DNA from: Candidatus Eiseniibacteriota bacterium
GTDB lineage: Bacteria > JAFGKV01
DNA: 5,115 nucleotides
Direction of reading: 5' to 3'
NCBI GenBank assembly: GCA_025453925.1
Contig: JALOPK010000266.1
Span: forward strand, 1 to 5,115
The position numbers and the translations under genes are program-made. A model generated the notes under the pieces. It ran no database searches, had not been told where the DNA came from, and saw only the letters and a program-made list of their open reading frames with translations. Shown here piece after piece: positions 1 through 4,921 of the stretch (the stretch's first letter is position 1; every line of letters begins with the position of its first letter).

Positions 1-935
1 GCCATCCGGTGCCGTTTGAGCTGTGCGAATGCGGCGGCGCTCATCACCAGGTGAAATGCGAGCTGCACCGCCTCGAAGGCACGGGGGAGGGAACGATTCC
101 ACTCTTGGCCGGACACACCGTAGATGAGGGCGCGACCATCTGTGGGTGCGGCGCAGAACGCGCGAGTCTCTCGGAGAACGCGCGCGGGATCGGGCGTGTG
201 CCACAAGAGGGTCGGCTCATCCGACCCTAAGCCCGGCCATGGGTGGCCGACCGACCCGCAGTCGGCGCGGGCCACATCGGCCTCTTCGCGCATCTCCGTT
301 ACCAGAGATGGGGCGATCTTCGATACCAGCGTCCGGATCCGCCCGGCCAGCATTCGCGATTCGCAGAGCGCATCACCATCCAGACGCTCCAGCATCGAGG
401 CGAGGGCCCTGGCGTTGACGGTGAGTCCAAGCTGGGTCGTGGTGGCCAGCCCCAAGGCGTAGCGGGCATCCTCCTTGCCCGCCCGGGAATCGCCCGATCC
501 GGCCATCCGCGCGGCGGCCGTGCGATACAGGGCGTGCTGATCGCGGGCGAGGGACCGGAACGCCGCGGAGAATCCTGATTCCCTCGCTTCCCGCGGGATC
601 AGGAAGTCTCCTCCTATTCGCACGTAGCGTTGCGACCGTTCCGTGTAGGATGCAAGCCGCGAGTGTTCCACGATCTCAGTGACGAGCCGGGACACGCCGA
701 TGAGGTCGAGATTGAACACGGCGTGCTCGGCCACCGACTCATGCCCCAGGTGGTGGACAATCCGTTCGATGAAGGCGCGGGCGCCGGCCAGGTCTTCCGC
801 CGCCCTGGCGCGAAGCTCGTGGACCGGACGGGAGCTTCGGCTGATTCTCGCATAGGCCGCACACACGATTTCGGGAGTGGACGCTGCCCCCTGTGCGAGA
901 CGCGGGACTGTGGCACCGGCCAGCGTGATCAGCAT
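1..935 (-). CDS. thyX: Flavin-dependent thymidylate synthase, tandem two-module form (partial, 3' end off window)
   Basis: I translated this frame by hand. It is open for 311 codons and runs off the left edge. ThyX makes dTMP from dUMP in the cytoplasm, using FAD/NADPH and methylenetetrahydrofolate. Module 1 shows an AYARISR stretch near residue 27, then GHESVAEHAVF (64-74), GVSR (80-83) and EHSRLASYTERSQRYV (90-105), matching the ThyX pattern HxS..EHa.F / SR / RHRx..S..RY. The RHR position reads EHSR. A second, ThyX-like stretch, AFHLVMSAAAFAQLKRHRM (293-311), begins at the window edge and has an intact RHR (308-310). From family knowledge, tandem ThyX proteins of about 500 residues exist, so roughly 200 codons are probably missing. 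The start is fixed: the codon before ATG at 935 is TAG (938-936), and a weak GGAAG (944-940) sits 4 nt upstream. It lies 73 nt after pgi, in the same direction, with no terminator seen. The family call is firm; the two-module reading is strong but incomplete. Confidence 0.87.
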   Translation of the reverse strand, partial: MLITLAGATVPRLAQGAASTPEIVCAAYARISRSSRPVHELRARAAEDLAGARAFIERIVHHLGHESVAEHAVFNLDLIGVSRLVTEIVEHSRLASYTERSQRYVRIGGDFLIPREARESGFSAAFRSLARDQHALYRTAAARMAGSGDSRAGKEDARYALGLATTTQLGLTVNARALASMLERLDGDALCESRMLAGRIRTLVSKIAPSLVTEMREEADVARADCGSVGHPWPGLGSDEPTLLWHTPDPARVLRETRAFCAAPTDGRALIYGVSGQEWNRSLPRAFEAVQLAFHLVMSAAAFAQLKRHRM

Positions 936-2285: not shown

Positions 2286-3968
2286 TTACCTCACCACCAC
2301 CAAAGGCAAAACCCCGCTGCGCGAGTCTCCCCGCCAGACCAGGAGATAGGTGCCCGGAGGCATGAGGGAAGTGGGAATAGGGCTCTGAAGCGCTGCAGCA
2401 TCGAGGATCTTCAACTGCTGCCGGCCGGCGAGATCGTAGAGCGAGACCTGATCGAGGCGAAGGCCCCGCGGAGCACGCAGGCTGAACGATGACGCCGCGG
2501 GGTTGGGAGTGATGCACAGGGTCAGATGGGTCGGGGAGGGAGAACCGGCGCCCGCCGCGGGTGACGGCAGCACGTCAGTGCGCAGCCCGGCATCCCACAC
2601 GCCATCCAACCCGAAGTGAAGAAGGTTGAGTGGCGCCGGTTCGCCGTAGAGGAGCCTTTCGTCACTGCAGAGGAGCGCATAGTCGCCCGCTGCCGTCACC
2701 GGGCCGGTGGCCTCCAGGAAGGCCTCGCTCCCCGGTGTCGACGTGAGCGTAGCCGGCACCGTCCATGTCCCCGTGCCGACATCGTGGCCACACGCCCAGA
2801 TATCCAGATTGGTGCCGTCTTCCGACAGATCCGACCACAGCACGACGGCGTTGTCGCCAGCGAGGATTGCCGTCGGCCAGTCTGGGGTGTCGTACGCGCG
2901 TGCCGAATCGACCATGGCACGCCCGACATAGGTCGTCTGCCAGCCGGAGCCGGTGAGATAGGAGCACAGGAGCGCGCGCGCCGACGGCCACACGCGTTCC
3001 TCGGCGGAAGACGTATCCGCGGATGCCCGGCGGGCCGTCCAGAACACCAGGGGCGTTGCTCCGGCGTACGTGAGCTGCACGCCATACCACGAAGTGCCAC
3101 CGCGGAACGAGCCGTAGGGCATTCGGCCTGGGGTATCCCCCAGCGCGGATCCATGCGCTTCGGCAGGGAGAAGCACGAGGTCGTCCCAGGTCGCGCCTCC
3201 GTCGCGGCTGGTGGTCATCCATGGCTGAAGCCCGATGTGGATGGAATCGCCCACTTCGGCAAGGACACACGCGGTGATCTCGCCGAGAGGGCCGATTGCG
3301 ATGGGCGTCGGGCCCCCGGCGCATGTGTCGGGCCTGGGCATGGCGGACGACCAGGCCTCCGGCGCCGGTGCGAAGGAGGTGTCGCCGTCTTCGAAGGTGA
3401 ACAGATATGAATCCCATGTCGTCGGGTCCCATACCGAAAGGGCGAGCAGGCCGCCCGAGGCGGCGGGAATGCCCAGCGCCGGGTCATGATGCGCGGATGC
3501 CGAGTCCGGCGCCGGATCTGTCACGGCGAAGCCCGTGTCGCTGCACGAGTCGGGGGACAGGGGCTCCAGGGTCTGGAAGAACGAGTAGGGATTTACGCGA
3601 GCGCATGGCTGCACGATGGTGGACAAGACCGGGGGGCCGAACTGCTCGGGCGTGACTACCCCGGGGAAGGAGAAGCAGAGCGCCATGGTGTCACAGGGAC
3701 CGACCGCGGTCATCTCCCGCCACTCGCTGCCGACGGACGCAGTGTACATGACCTTCAACCCCGTGTCCGCGGGAATTGCCACGGTCAAGCCCCCGTCCGT
3801 GGTGCCGCTGATGCTGGGGCAGAAGGCGGGGATGAGTTGCTGGGGGCTGGTCAGAATGGCGAGGCTATCGCCGGCGATAGACCCCGCTCGGGGATGAAAC
3901 GTGGGGATCACTTCGGGGAAACGCCCCGTGGAGAGCAGTGCGAACATGCACATCAGAAGAGCAGTCAC
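2286..3968 (-). CDS. Secreted Asp-box (sialidase/BNR-like) protein with C-terminal FlgD-Ig/T9SS-type sorting domain
   Basis: This 560-residue protein is probably exported. Residues 3-12 form a short hydrophobic stretch resembling a signal peptide, but no Lys/Arg precedes it. The middle is rich in Trp, Gly, Asp and Thr and predicted beta-rich. SRDGGATW (254-261) is a perfect Asp-box (SxDxGxTW), typical of sialidase/BNR beta-propellers, and a second segment, VVLWSDLSEDG then NLDIW (375-391), resembles propeller strands of such proteins. The final ~78 residues (483-560), with ITPNPAASSFSL, VSLYDLAGRQ and PPGTYLLVWRG, match the FlgD-Ig/type IX sorting-domain pattern that directs outer-membrane export or attachment in FCB bacteria. 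I see no catalytic signature, so its ligand or substrate is unknown and 'sialidase' should not be assumed. Twelve cysteines fit an extracytoplasmic protein. The start is GTG: an in-frame TGA lies two codons upstream and a strong SD precedes it. It is first in the minus-strand run, 2 nt before pgi. Confidence 0.85.
   Translation of the reverse strand: MTALLMCMFALLSTGRFPEVIPTFHPRAGSIAGDSLAILTSPQQLIPAFCPSISGTTDGGLTVAIPADTGLKVMYTASVGSEWREMTAVGPCDTMALCFSFPGVVTPEQFGPPVLSTIVQPCARVNPYSFFQTLEPLSPDSCSDTGFAVTDPAPDSASAHHDPALGIPAASGGLLALSVWDPTTWDSYLFTFEDGDTSFAPAPEAWSSAMPRPDTCAGGPTPIAIGPLGEITACVLAEVGDSIHIGLQPWMTTSRDGGATWDDLVLLPAEAHGSALGDTPGRMPYGSFRGGTSWYGVQLTYAGATPLVFWTARRASADTSSAEERVWPSARALLCSYLTGSGWQTTYVGRAMVDSARAYDTPDWPTAILAGDNAVVLWSDLSEDGTNLDIWACGHDVGTGTWTVPATLTSTPGSEAFLEATGPVTAAGDYALLCSDERLLYGEPAPLNLLHFGLDGVWDAGLRTDVLPSPAAGAGSPSPTHLTLCITPNPAASSFSLRAPRGLRLDQVSLYDLAGRQQLKILDAAALQSPIPTSLMPPGTYLLVWRGDSRSGVLPLVVVR
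2288..2295 (-). promoter_or_regulatory. Ribosome binding site of pgi inside the upstream gene
   Basis: Read on the minus strand, GGTGAGGT lies 5 nt (counted from GAGG) before the ATG at 2283 and overlaps the last codons and stop of the secreted-protein gene. It decides the pgi start against the longer open frame and implies that ribosomes ending the first gene can re-initiate on pgi. Confidence 0.75.
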
Positions 3969-4371: not shown

Positions 4372-4422
4372 CCGCATGGTGGCCCGCCTTGGCTTTCGCC
4401 CCCCGGGCCGAAACCCCCCAAC

Positions 4423-4427
4423 AAGGA
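4423..4427 (+). promoter_or_regulatory. Ribosome binding site of the DUF4446 gene
   Basis: AAGGA lies 8 nt before the ATG at 4436. It favours this start over the in-frame ATG at 4376, which would add 20 Arg/Pro-rich residues in front of the membrane segment, and over the ATG at 4469. Confidence 0.65.
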
Positions 4428-4435
4428 ATCAAACG

Positions 4436-4921
4436 ATGATCACAGTGTTCGGCCGGCTGGATCCCAGCATGATCGCGATCGGCGCTGCGATCGGGCTTCT
4501 ATGGTTGATCGCGCTCCAGGTTCTCTGCATCGTGCTCTGGCTGAAGCTGCGCAGGATCTTCCGCGGGAAGGGCGCATCCGATCTCGAGGCCGTTATGGCC
4601 GGGCACGGGGCGGAACTGGATGCCATTCATCGCCGTGAGCACGATACGAAGGAGACCATTGCCCGGATCCGTGCGCACCTTGATCGTGCGCTCTCGCAGG
4701 TCAATGTCATCCGCTTCAACCCGTTCGGCGCAGGCGTCGCGGAGCAGAGCTTCACTGTGGCGCTCCTCGACAGCATGGGCAGCGGCGTGGTCATGACCTG
4801 TCTCCAGAGTGGTGACGGCAGCTCCCGCGTCTACGGGAAGCCCGTGGAGCAGCGTATCTCGGCTCACAGGCTCTCCCCCGAGGAAGAGAAAGCAATCGAC
4901 GAAGCCATGAAGATTCGGTGA
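4436..4921 (+). CDS. DUF4446 family membrane-anchored protein
   Basis: This 161-residue protein has the DUF4446 layout: one N-terminal membrane helix (about 12-36), a basic stop-transfer KLRRIFRGK (37-45), a heptad-like helical linker (about 46-90) and a small conserved cytoplasmic domain. In that domain VIRFNPF (91-97), SFTVALLDSMGSGVVMTCL (105-123) and RVYGKPV (131-137) followed by LSPEEEKAI (146-154) match the family pattern of R(y/f)(n/d)aF, FS.aLLD..GnGvv.tsl, sR.Y.KPi and LS.EE..A. The molecular function is unknown. From family knowledge it is common in Firmicutes and relatives, often near parB; that neighbourhood is not visible here. The gene is transcribed away from the minus-strand operon, stands alone as far as the window shows, and is preceded by a hairpin-bearing leader. 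The family assignment is from memory of the pattern; function is not inferred. Confidence 0.85.
   Translation: MITVFGRLDPSMIAIGAAIGLLWLIALQVLCIVLWLKLRRIFRGKGASDLEAVMAGHGAELDAIHRREHDTKETIARIRAHLDRALSQVNVIRFNPFGAGVAEQSFTVALLDSMGSGVVMTCLQSGDGSSRVYGKPVEQRISAHRLSPEEEKAIDEAMKIR

Follow-up and report, generated by a model that had tools for sequence, protein, structure and literature searches.

The flavin-dependent thymidylate synthase ThyX (PF02511, TIGR02170; structures 1O26, 4GT9 and 3GWC) has four live sites per four modules, and each site is assembled from residues of several subunits. In the structures from Mycobacterium tuberculosis and Helicobacter pylori, one site receives the RHR motif and R199 (R174 in Thermotoga maritima) from subunit A, S71 and R190 (T55 and R165 in T. 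maritima) from subunit B, and R87, S105, R107 and Y108 (the arginine of the SR motif, S88, R90 and Y91) from subunit C (reviewed in PMC6514825). The inhibitor structure of the PBCV-1 enzyme places Q75 and the R174 equivalent (R182) on one monomer and S88 on another (PMC3498832), and H53 of T. maritima ThyX is located on a third monomer (PMC11940539). The correspondence of residue numbers between species was derived here from the motifs. A duplication of the ThyX domain in Chloroflexi "and a few other species" was mentioned, uncharacterised, by Valas and Bourne in 2009 (PMC3224940); the paper gives the duplication only, with no residues and no division of the site. In the literature searched here, with most subscription papers outside its scope, this remark is the only published mention of a two-module ThyX, and no account of divided sites was found.

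Here, we describe the gene of a two-module ThyX in a stretch of 5,115 nucleotides from a Candidatus Eiseniibacteriota bacterium (contig JALOPK010000266.1), called the window, which is an entire contig (C300) of its genome. The gene probably encodes the flavin-dependent thymidylate synthase of this organism; its two fused modules have complementary losses of catalytic residues and would form composite sites that are shared between chains. The duplication has been known since 2009; the new elements are the complementary division, its breadth and the proposed model of the composite site.

Two ThyX modules in one chain

The frame of the gene runs on the minus strand from position 935 to position 3 (311 aa), contains no stop and is open at the contig end. 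Its protein matches PF02511 (Thy1) with an E-value of 2e-38 for the whole protein, in two stretches, and a full domain lies at residues 20-210. An earlier note on this DNA, made from the letters alone, had described two ThyX-like blocks in one frame, and the PF02511 matches of the window protein and of its complete orthologues (about 1e-50, again in two stretches) confirm this. The motifs it had named were located at residues 64-71 (GHESVAEH), 96-104 (SYTERSQRY; both within its block 64-105) and 305-311 (QLKRHRM). The RHR of module 2 (M2) is the last element in the window, and thus this module is only begun there. The leftward extension of the contig, which the note had proposed, was found on a second contig of this genome (C130), where a terminal open frame supplies the final 83 codons and encodes the C-terminal part of Thy1 (PF02511 positions 130-186, E 1.2e-9).

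Complete orthologues of 427-448 aa are known in the same genus (genome G001, locus L033, 427 aa from ATG) and in the same family (genome G002). In BLAST comparisons with the G001 protein, the window piece spans residues 1-308 (62% identity) and the C130 piece residues 345-427 (59%), and the alignment to this orthologue leaves an assembly gap of 36 residues between the two. Between the two species, identity amounts to 71% in module 1 (M1) and to 83% in the M2 core that surrounds RHR. Among the listed named records, the highest identity to the same-genus orthologue is 46%, in a Candidatus Eisenbacteria contig. The genes upstream of ThyX are the same in G001, namely a phosphoglucose isomerase (PF00342) and then a large secreted-looking protein. 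Both complete orthologues, from the same genus and from the same family, score above the TIGR02170 equivalog cut-off of 87.9 bits (106.3 and 94.2 bits), and the contig-cut window protein falls just below it with 86.1 bits.

The structure predicted for the full G001 chain is of high confidence, with a predicted local distance difference test score (pLDDT) of 88.6 and a predicted template modelling score of 0.88, and its M1 is matched to ThyX structures with a best Z of 16.7 (2.4 Å, 190 residues aligned). For the G002 protein, M2 was folded by itself (pLDDT 87.7) and is matched with a best Z of 17.9 (2.5 Å, 185 residues). According to these predicted models, both modules have the ThyX fold. The single Thy1 domain, or the unrelated fold of the block at residues 293-311, that would have spoken against the earlier reading was not found. 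A sequence search returned no solved chain with two ThyX modules; all the solved ThyX chains found are single-module chains of 216-270 residues.

Breadth of the two-module form

Of 98 sampled genomes, which represent roughly the same number of families, 70 contain Thy1, and 21 of these 70, including the window's genome and its two relatives G001 and G002, encode a chain of about 450-580 residues with two Thy1 modules. When named genomes were scanned for the window's type, more than 580 stretches matched, the best 80 of which belong to Syntrophales and other Deltaproteobacteria, Omnitrophota, Aminicenantes, Krumholzibacteriota, Eisenbacteria, Latescibacterota, WOR-3, Elusimicrobia and others. 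The 106 complete two-module proteins were sorted by sequence into class A (95 proteins, the window's type), class B (2), class C (5) and class D (4, a very divergent type). Such a collection, together with the complete orthologues, establishes that the two-module chain is real and not a chance arrangement, and the suspicion of a subfamily rather than a one-off was well founded. The fused ThyX is widespread in little-studied bacteria, where the plain label "FAD-dependent thymidylate synthase" (FAD, flavin adenine dinucleotide) conceals a different architecture.

Complementary division of the catalytic residues

Residues were scored at fixed ungapped offsets from RHR in M2 or from SxRY in M1. 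Since SxRY anchors M1 and RHR anchors M2, their presence in these modules is given by construction; the informative observations are that the other module lacks them and how the remaining positions behave. In class A (n = 95), the counts for M1 and M2 are 94/0 for H53, 94/2 for S55, 94/0 for the SR arginine, 95/2 for S88, 95/0 for R90 and 95/0 for Y91. The direction is reversed for Q75 (3/94), R78 (12/95) and H79 (6/95). RHR is present in M1 of none of the 106 proteins, and in a gapped alignment R147 is present in M1 of all 106 and is not the common residue in M2. The 11 proteins of classes B, C and D agree in direction for RHR, S88, R90 and Y91, with exceptions in class C (M1 without the SR arginine, M2 without Q75) and in class D (H79 kept in M1). 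The same offsets could be applied to 29 of the 31 single-module ThyX proteins, and RHR, S88 and R90 occur together in every one of these 29. The RHR(x7)S motif, in which RHR is followed by S88 and R90 within one segment, is contained in neither module and only in both together. As judged from the sequences, the division is strict: M1 has retained GHxSxxEH together with the SR arginine and SxRY, and M2 has retained RHR and lost the rest. The gapped alignment hints at a retention of E58 and Y91 in M2; the ungapped RHR offsets, on which the counts are based, give F and P at these places in class A, and the assignment of the two positions is to this extent ambiguous.

The window protein follows this division. 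Its M1 reads GHESVAEH ... GVSRLVTEIVEHSRLASYTERSQRY, and HSR (residues 91-93) stands at the place of RHR, both by an ungapped count from SxRY and when the chain is aligned without gaps to canonical ThyX (VSR-10 residues-LASY). Only the third arginine is therefore retained in M1. The EHSR that the earlier note had put here marks the same spot, with HSR as the ungapped tripeptide. M2 reads ...RAFEAVQLAFHLVMSAAAFAQLKRHRM in the window and RHRMASILAQPYDPALG in the same-genus orthologue, which contains RHR and the glutamine of Q75, and has P at the place of S88 and D at that of R90. This module has neither GHxSxxEH nor the SR arginine. The earlier supposition that a single motif is altered in the fused pair does not describe the protein, because M2 has lost no less than M1, namely GHxSxxEH, the SR arginine, S88, R90, Y91 and R147.

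Proposed model of the composite sites

Three roles are distinguished in the ThyX site. Role A (RHR) grips FAD and deoxyuridine monophosphate (dUMP), role B (the serine of GHxS) grips the FAD phosphates, and role C (the SR arginine, S88, R90 and Y91) grips dUMP and forms a lid. The division of the residues, taken together with the published subunit roles, assigns role A to M2 and roles B and C to M1. In the proposed scenario, two ThyX modules were fused and their catalytic residues then degenerated in a complementary fashion. Two chains would form a pseudo-tetramer with three two-fold axes, where A is M2, B is M1, C is M1′ and D is M2′. In such an assembly, one M2 and both M1 modules would jointly complete each of two composite sites; in the other two sites all the lost residues would coincide, leaving them inactive. 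As each live site needs both M1 modules, both chains would be needed, which makes the enzyme an obligate dimer of chains. We infer this quaternary structure, the two live sites, the catalytic activity and the usual chemistry, in which methylenetetrahydrofolate, NADPH and dUMP yield deoxythymidine monophosphate and tetrahydrofolate. Of the pseudo-dimer with two unequal sites suggested earlier, the inequality is kept; the live sites would, however, be joint M1/M2 sites, and the dead ones would gather all the losses.

In comparison with ThyX of known structure, both modules share the fold and jointly hold all main residues for dUMP, FAD and folate. The difference is that the window type has two modules per chain with the residues divided between them, and two live sites are expected per four modules instead of four. 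The divided residues predict one FAD per chain, obligate pairing of the chains and two live sites, and the two-module form offers a natural test of which residue acts in which subunit.

The genome setting is consistent with a working enzyme. PF00303 (ThyA) and PF00186 (DHFR_1) are absent from 21 of 21 two-module genomes, and PF00303 is matched in 20 of the 28 sampled genomes without Thy1. In the window's genome, which is 82% complete, no further Thy1 gene and no PF00303 match were found, which answers the earlier question of an accompanying thyA or single-domain thyX. The lack of both thyA and DHFR fits a functional ThyX, because ThyX returns tetrahydrofolate. About one third of the ThyX-bearing sampled genomes (21/70) appear to depend on the two-module form.

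A two-gene ThyX in Desulfurobacteriaceae

A related arrangement is found in Desulfurobacteriaceae, where two ThyX genes are present at separate loci in 10 of 10 genomes, about 640 kb apart in one of them (G012), and thyA in none of the 10. The large protein (about 200-220 residues) keeps SR, RHR and SxRY, has lost GHxSxxEH and has R165 replaced (NGE or NSK). The small protein (about 130-150 residues) keeps GHxSxxEH and NLR and has lost RHR and SxRY. Thus S55, R165 and H53 are kept in the small protein, and exactly these are lost from the large one, which suggests that the pair is a heteromeric ThyX. What remains in the small protein corresponds to the published B residues alone, and what remains in the large one to those of A and C, so that the pair independently supports the subunit roles used for the two-module ThyX. 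Both systems show complementary losses along these roles and no thyA; they differ in that the Desulfurobacteriaceae have separate genes, with B in the small protein and A and C in the large one, whereas in the window protein M1 holds B and C and M2 holds A. No description of this two-gene ThyX was found in the literature searched. The two cases together suggest that tetramers with three-subunit sites can turn composite by complementary loss, and more than once.

Alternative explanations

Several observations weigh against the composite-site reading. R80 is undivided (M1/M2 94/95 in class A), and in the gapped alignment R165 stays in both modules and an arginine near R174 remains in most M1. 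Most M2 have a tyrosine two positions ahead of the place of Y91, which the gapped alignment puts at Y91. The window's gene lacks 36 residues of M2, the tetramer model is based on roles taken from papers and not on measured coordinates, and the literature search returned no two-module ThyX with a structure, an assay or a complementation. The window's genome and some, not all, of the others also encode a thymidine kinase. Salvage is therefore possible, and the two-module ThyX, although no other de novo source was found, need not be the sole source of thymidylate.

The complementary losses also bear on an explanation close to that of the earlier note, in which the modules act as two independent ThyX units, with M2 forming normal sites with other M2 modules and M1 being structural or of changed chemistry. 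The RHR of M2 is intact and both modules are predicted to fold as ThyX, as this would require; yet practically all M2 are without S88, R90, Y91, the SR arginine, R147 and GHxSxxEH, so that a site made of M2 modules would be unable to bind dUMP or folate in the known manner, and the same residues, which a structural module would not need, are strictly conserved in M1. We consider such independence very unlikely. Composite sites may also exist while the incomplete sites bind another ligand, such as a regulatory nucleotide, through new conserved residues (K/F for R78/H79 in M1, D/P for R90/Y91 in M2). The class A replacements are fairly conserved, with H79 to F in 80 and R78 to K in 61 of the 95 M1 modules, and R90 to D in 67 and Y91 to P in 84 of the 95 M2 modules. 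These may, however, serve packing only; classes B-D have other replacements and the window itself has HS, not KF, and a rebuilt regulatory site is unlikely. If it did exist, the enzyme would be an allosteric ThyX whose catalytic and regulatory pockets share one origin. The split of the gene over two contigs of an 82% complete assembly could point to a decaying, degenerate or chimeric gene with M2 as an assembly join or pseudogene tail; this is hardly credible, since G001 and G002 have complete orthologues in the same order, which refute it, and the conserved neighbours and strong conservation across many phyla speak against it as well. Fused modules with composite sites shared between the chains are thus retained as the probable explanation.

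Origin and related proteins

In a quick tree, the M1 modules of classes A-C and their M2 modules fall into two distinct groups with good support, and class D stands apart. Trees holding all M1 together, or all M2, have a slightly better likelihood and are not rejected (approximately unbiased test, p 0.74 and 0.70). Independent origins of classes A-C and class D are therefore not claimed. Since the order M1-M2 and the division are constant throughout, one ancient fusion is the simplest reading. Class D looks like the domain-duplicated type of Chloroflexi (PMC3224940), which shares with the window type two Thy1 domains per chain as the only thymidylate synthase found. In the tree, a long distance separates class D from classes A-C, the window being in class A, and a common origin is not rejected.

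Other relatives were met on the way. The jumbo Tunturiibacter phage Tunturi_5 (PP885688.1:46528-47958) encodes a relative, annotated as thymidylate synthase, that covers 88% of a two-module ThyX at 23% identity. Full-length class A proteins are encoded on six contigs of a viral collection (L137-L142), some of which may be misassigned bacterial contigs. A single-module ThyX of genome G094 (L036:1958-3757, plus strand) contains a long in-frame HNH-like insert, apparently an intein, between the RHR region and SQQSQRY. A ThyX relative of genome G054 (L056:1812-2567, minus strand) has RQWWKY in the place of the RHR region, and the same genome has thyA and DHFR.

Features of the window

Table 1. Coordinates of the two-module ThyX gene and its motifs, of other genes in the window and of the Desulfurobacteriaceae ThyX genes
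Feature	Sequence	Position	Strand	Basis
Two-module ThyX gene, first 311 codons	window	3..935	-	PF02511 match; 62% identity to residues 1-308 of complete same-genus orthologue
M1, residues 1-212, complete Thy1 domain	window	300..935	-	PF02511 at 20-210; predicted fold of orthologue matches ThyX, Z up to 16.7
GHESVAEH (T. maritima H53, T55, E58, H59), FAD/folate-binding motif kept in M1	window	723..746	-	H53 in class A: M1 94/95, M2 0/95
SR-motif Arg (M. tuberculosis R87, dUMP binding)	window	687..689	-	Class A: M1 94/95, M2 0/95; role per PMC6514825
HSR at the RHR place, degenerate in M1	window	657..665	-	Ungapped alignment; RHR intact in M1 of 0/106
SQRY (T. maritima S88, R90, Y91) kept in M1	window	624..635	-	M1 106/106; M2 S88 2/106, R90 0/106, Y91 0/106, ungapped
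Arg equivalent to T. maritima R147	window	462..464	-	M1 106/106, not the common residue in M2, gapped alignment
NAR (T. maritima N163, R165), kept in both modules	window	408..416	-	Gapped alignment
Linker and N-terminal part of M2	window	3..299	-	Second Thy1 stretch in window protein and orthologues
RHR of M2, intact; Gln equivalent to Q75 before it	window	6..14	-	M2: R78 and H79 106/106, Q75 100/106
Large protein upstream of the isomerase gene	window	2286-3968	-	No Pfam match in the part tested
DUF4446 protein	window	4376-4921	+	PF14584, E 7.4e-27
Desulfurobacteriaceae, large ThyX	L154	1316-1939	-	
Desulfurobacteriaceae, small ThyX	L155	1516-1917	+	
Further Desulfurobacteriaceae pairs, large ThyX	L160-L167, L180-L181			
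Further Desulfurobacteriaceae pairs, small ThyX	L170-L179			

The window also encodes a DUF4446 protein and, upstream of the isomerase gene, the large protein conserved in G001 and G002, the C-terminus of which (NPAASSFSLRAP...LYDLAGR...PPGTYLLVW) resembles a type IX secretion sorting domain.
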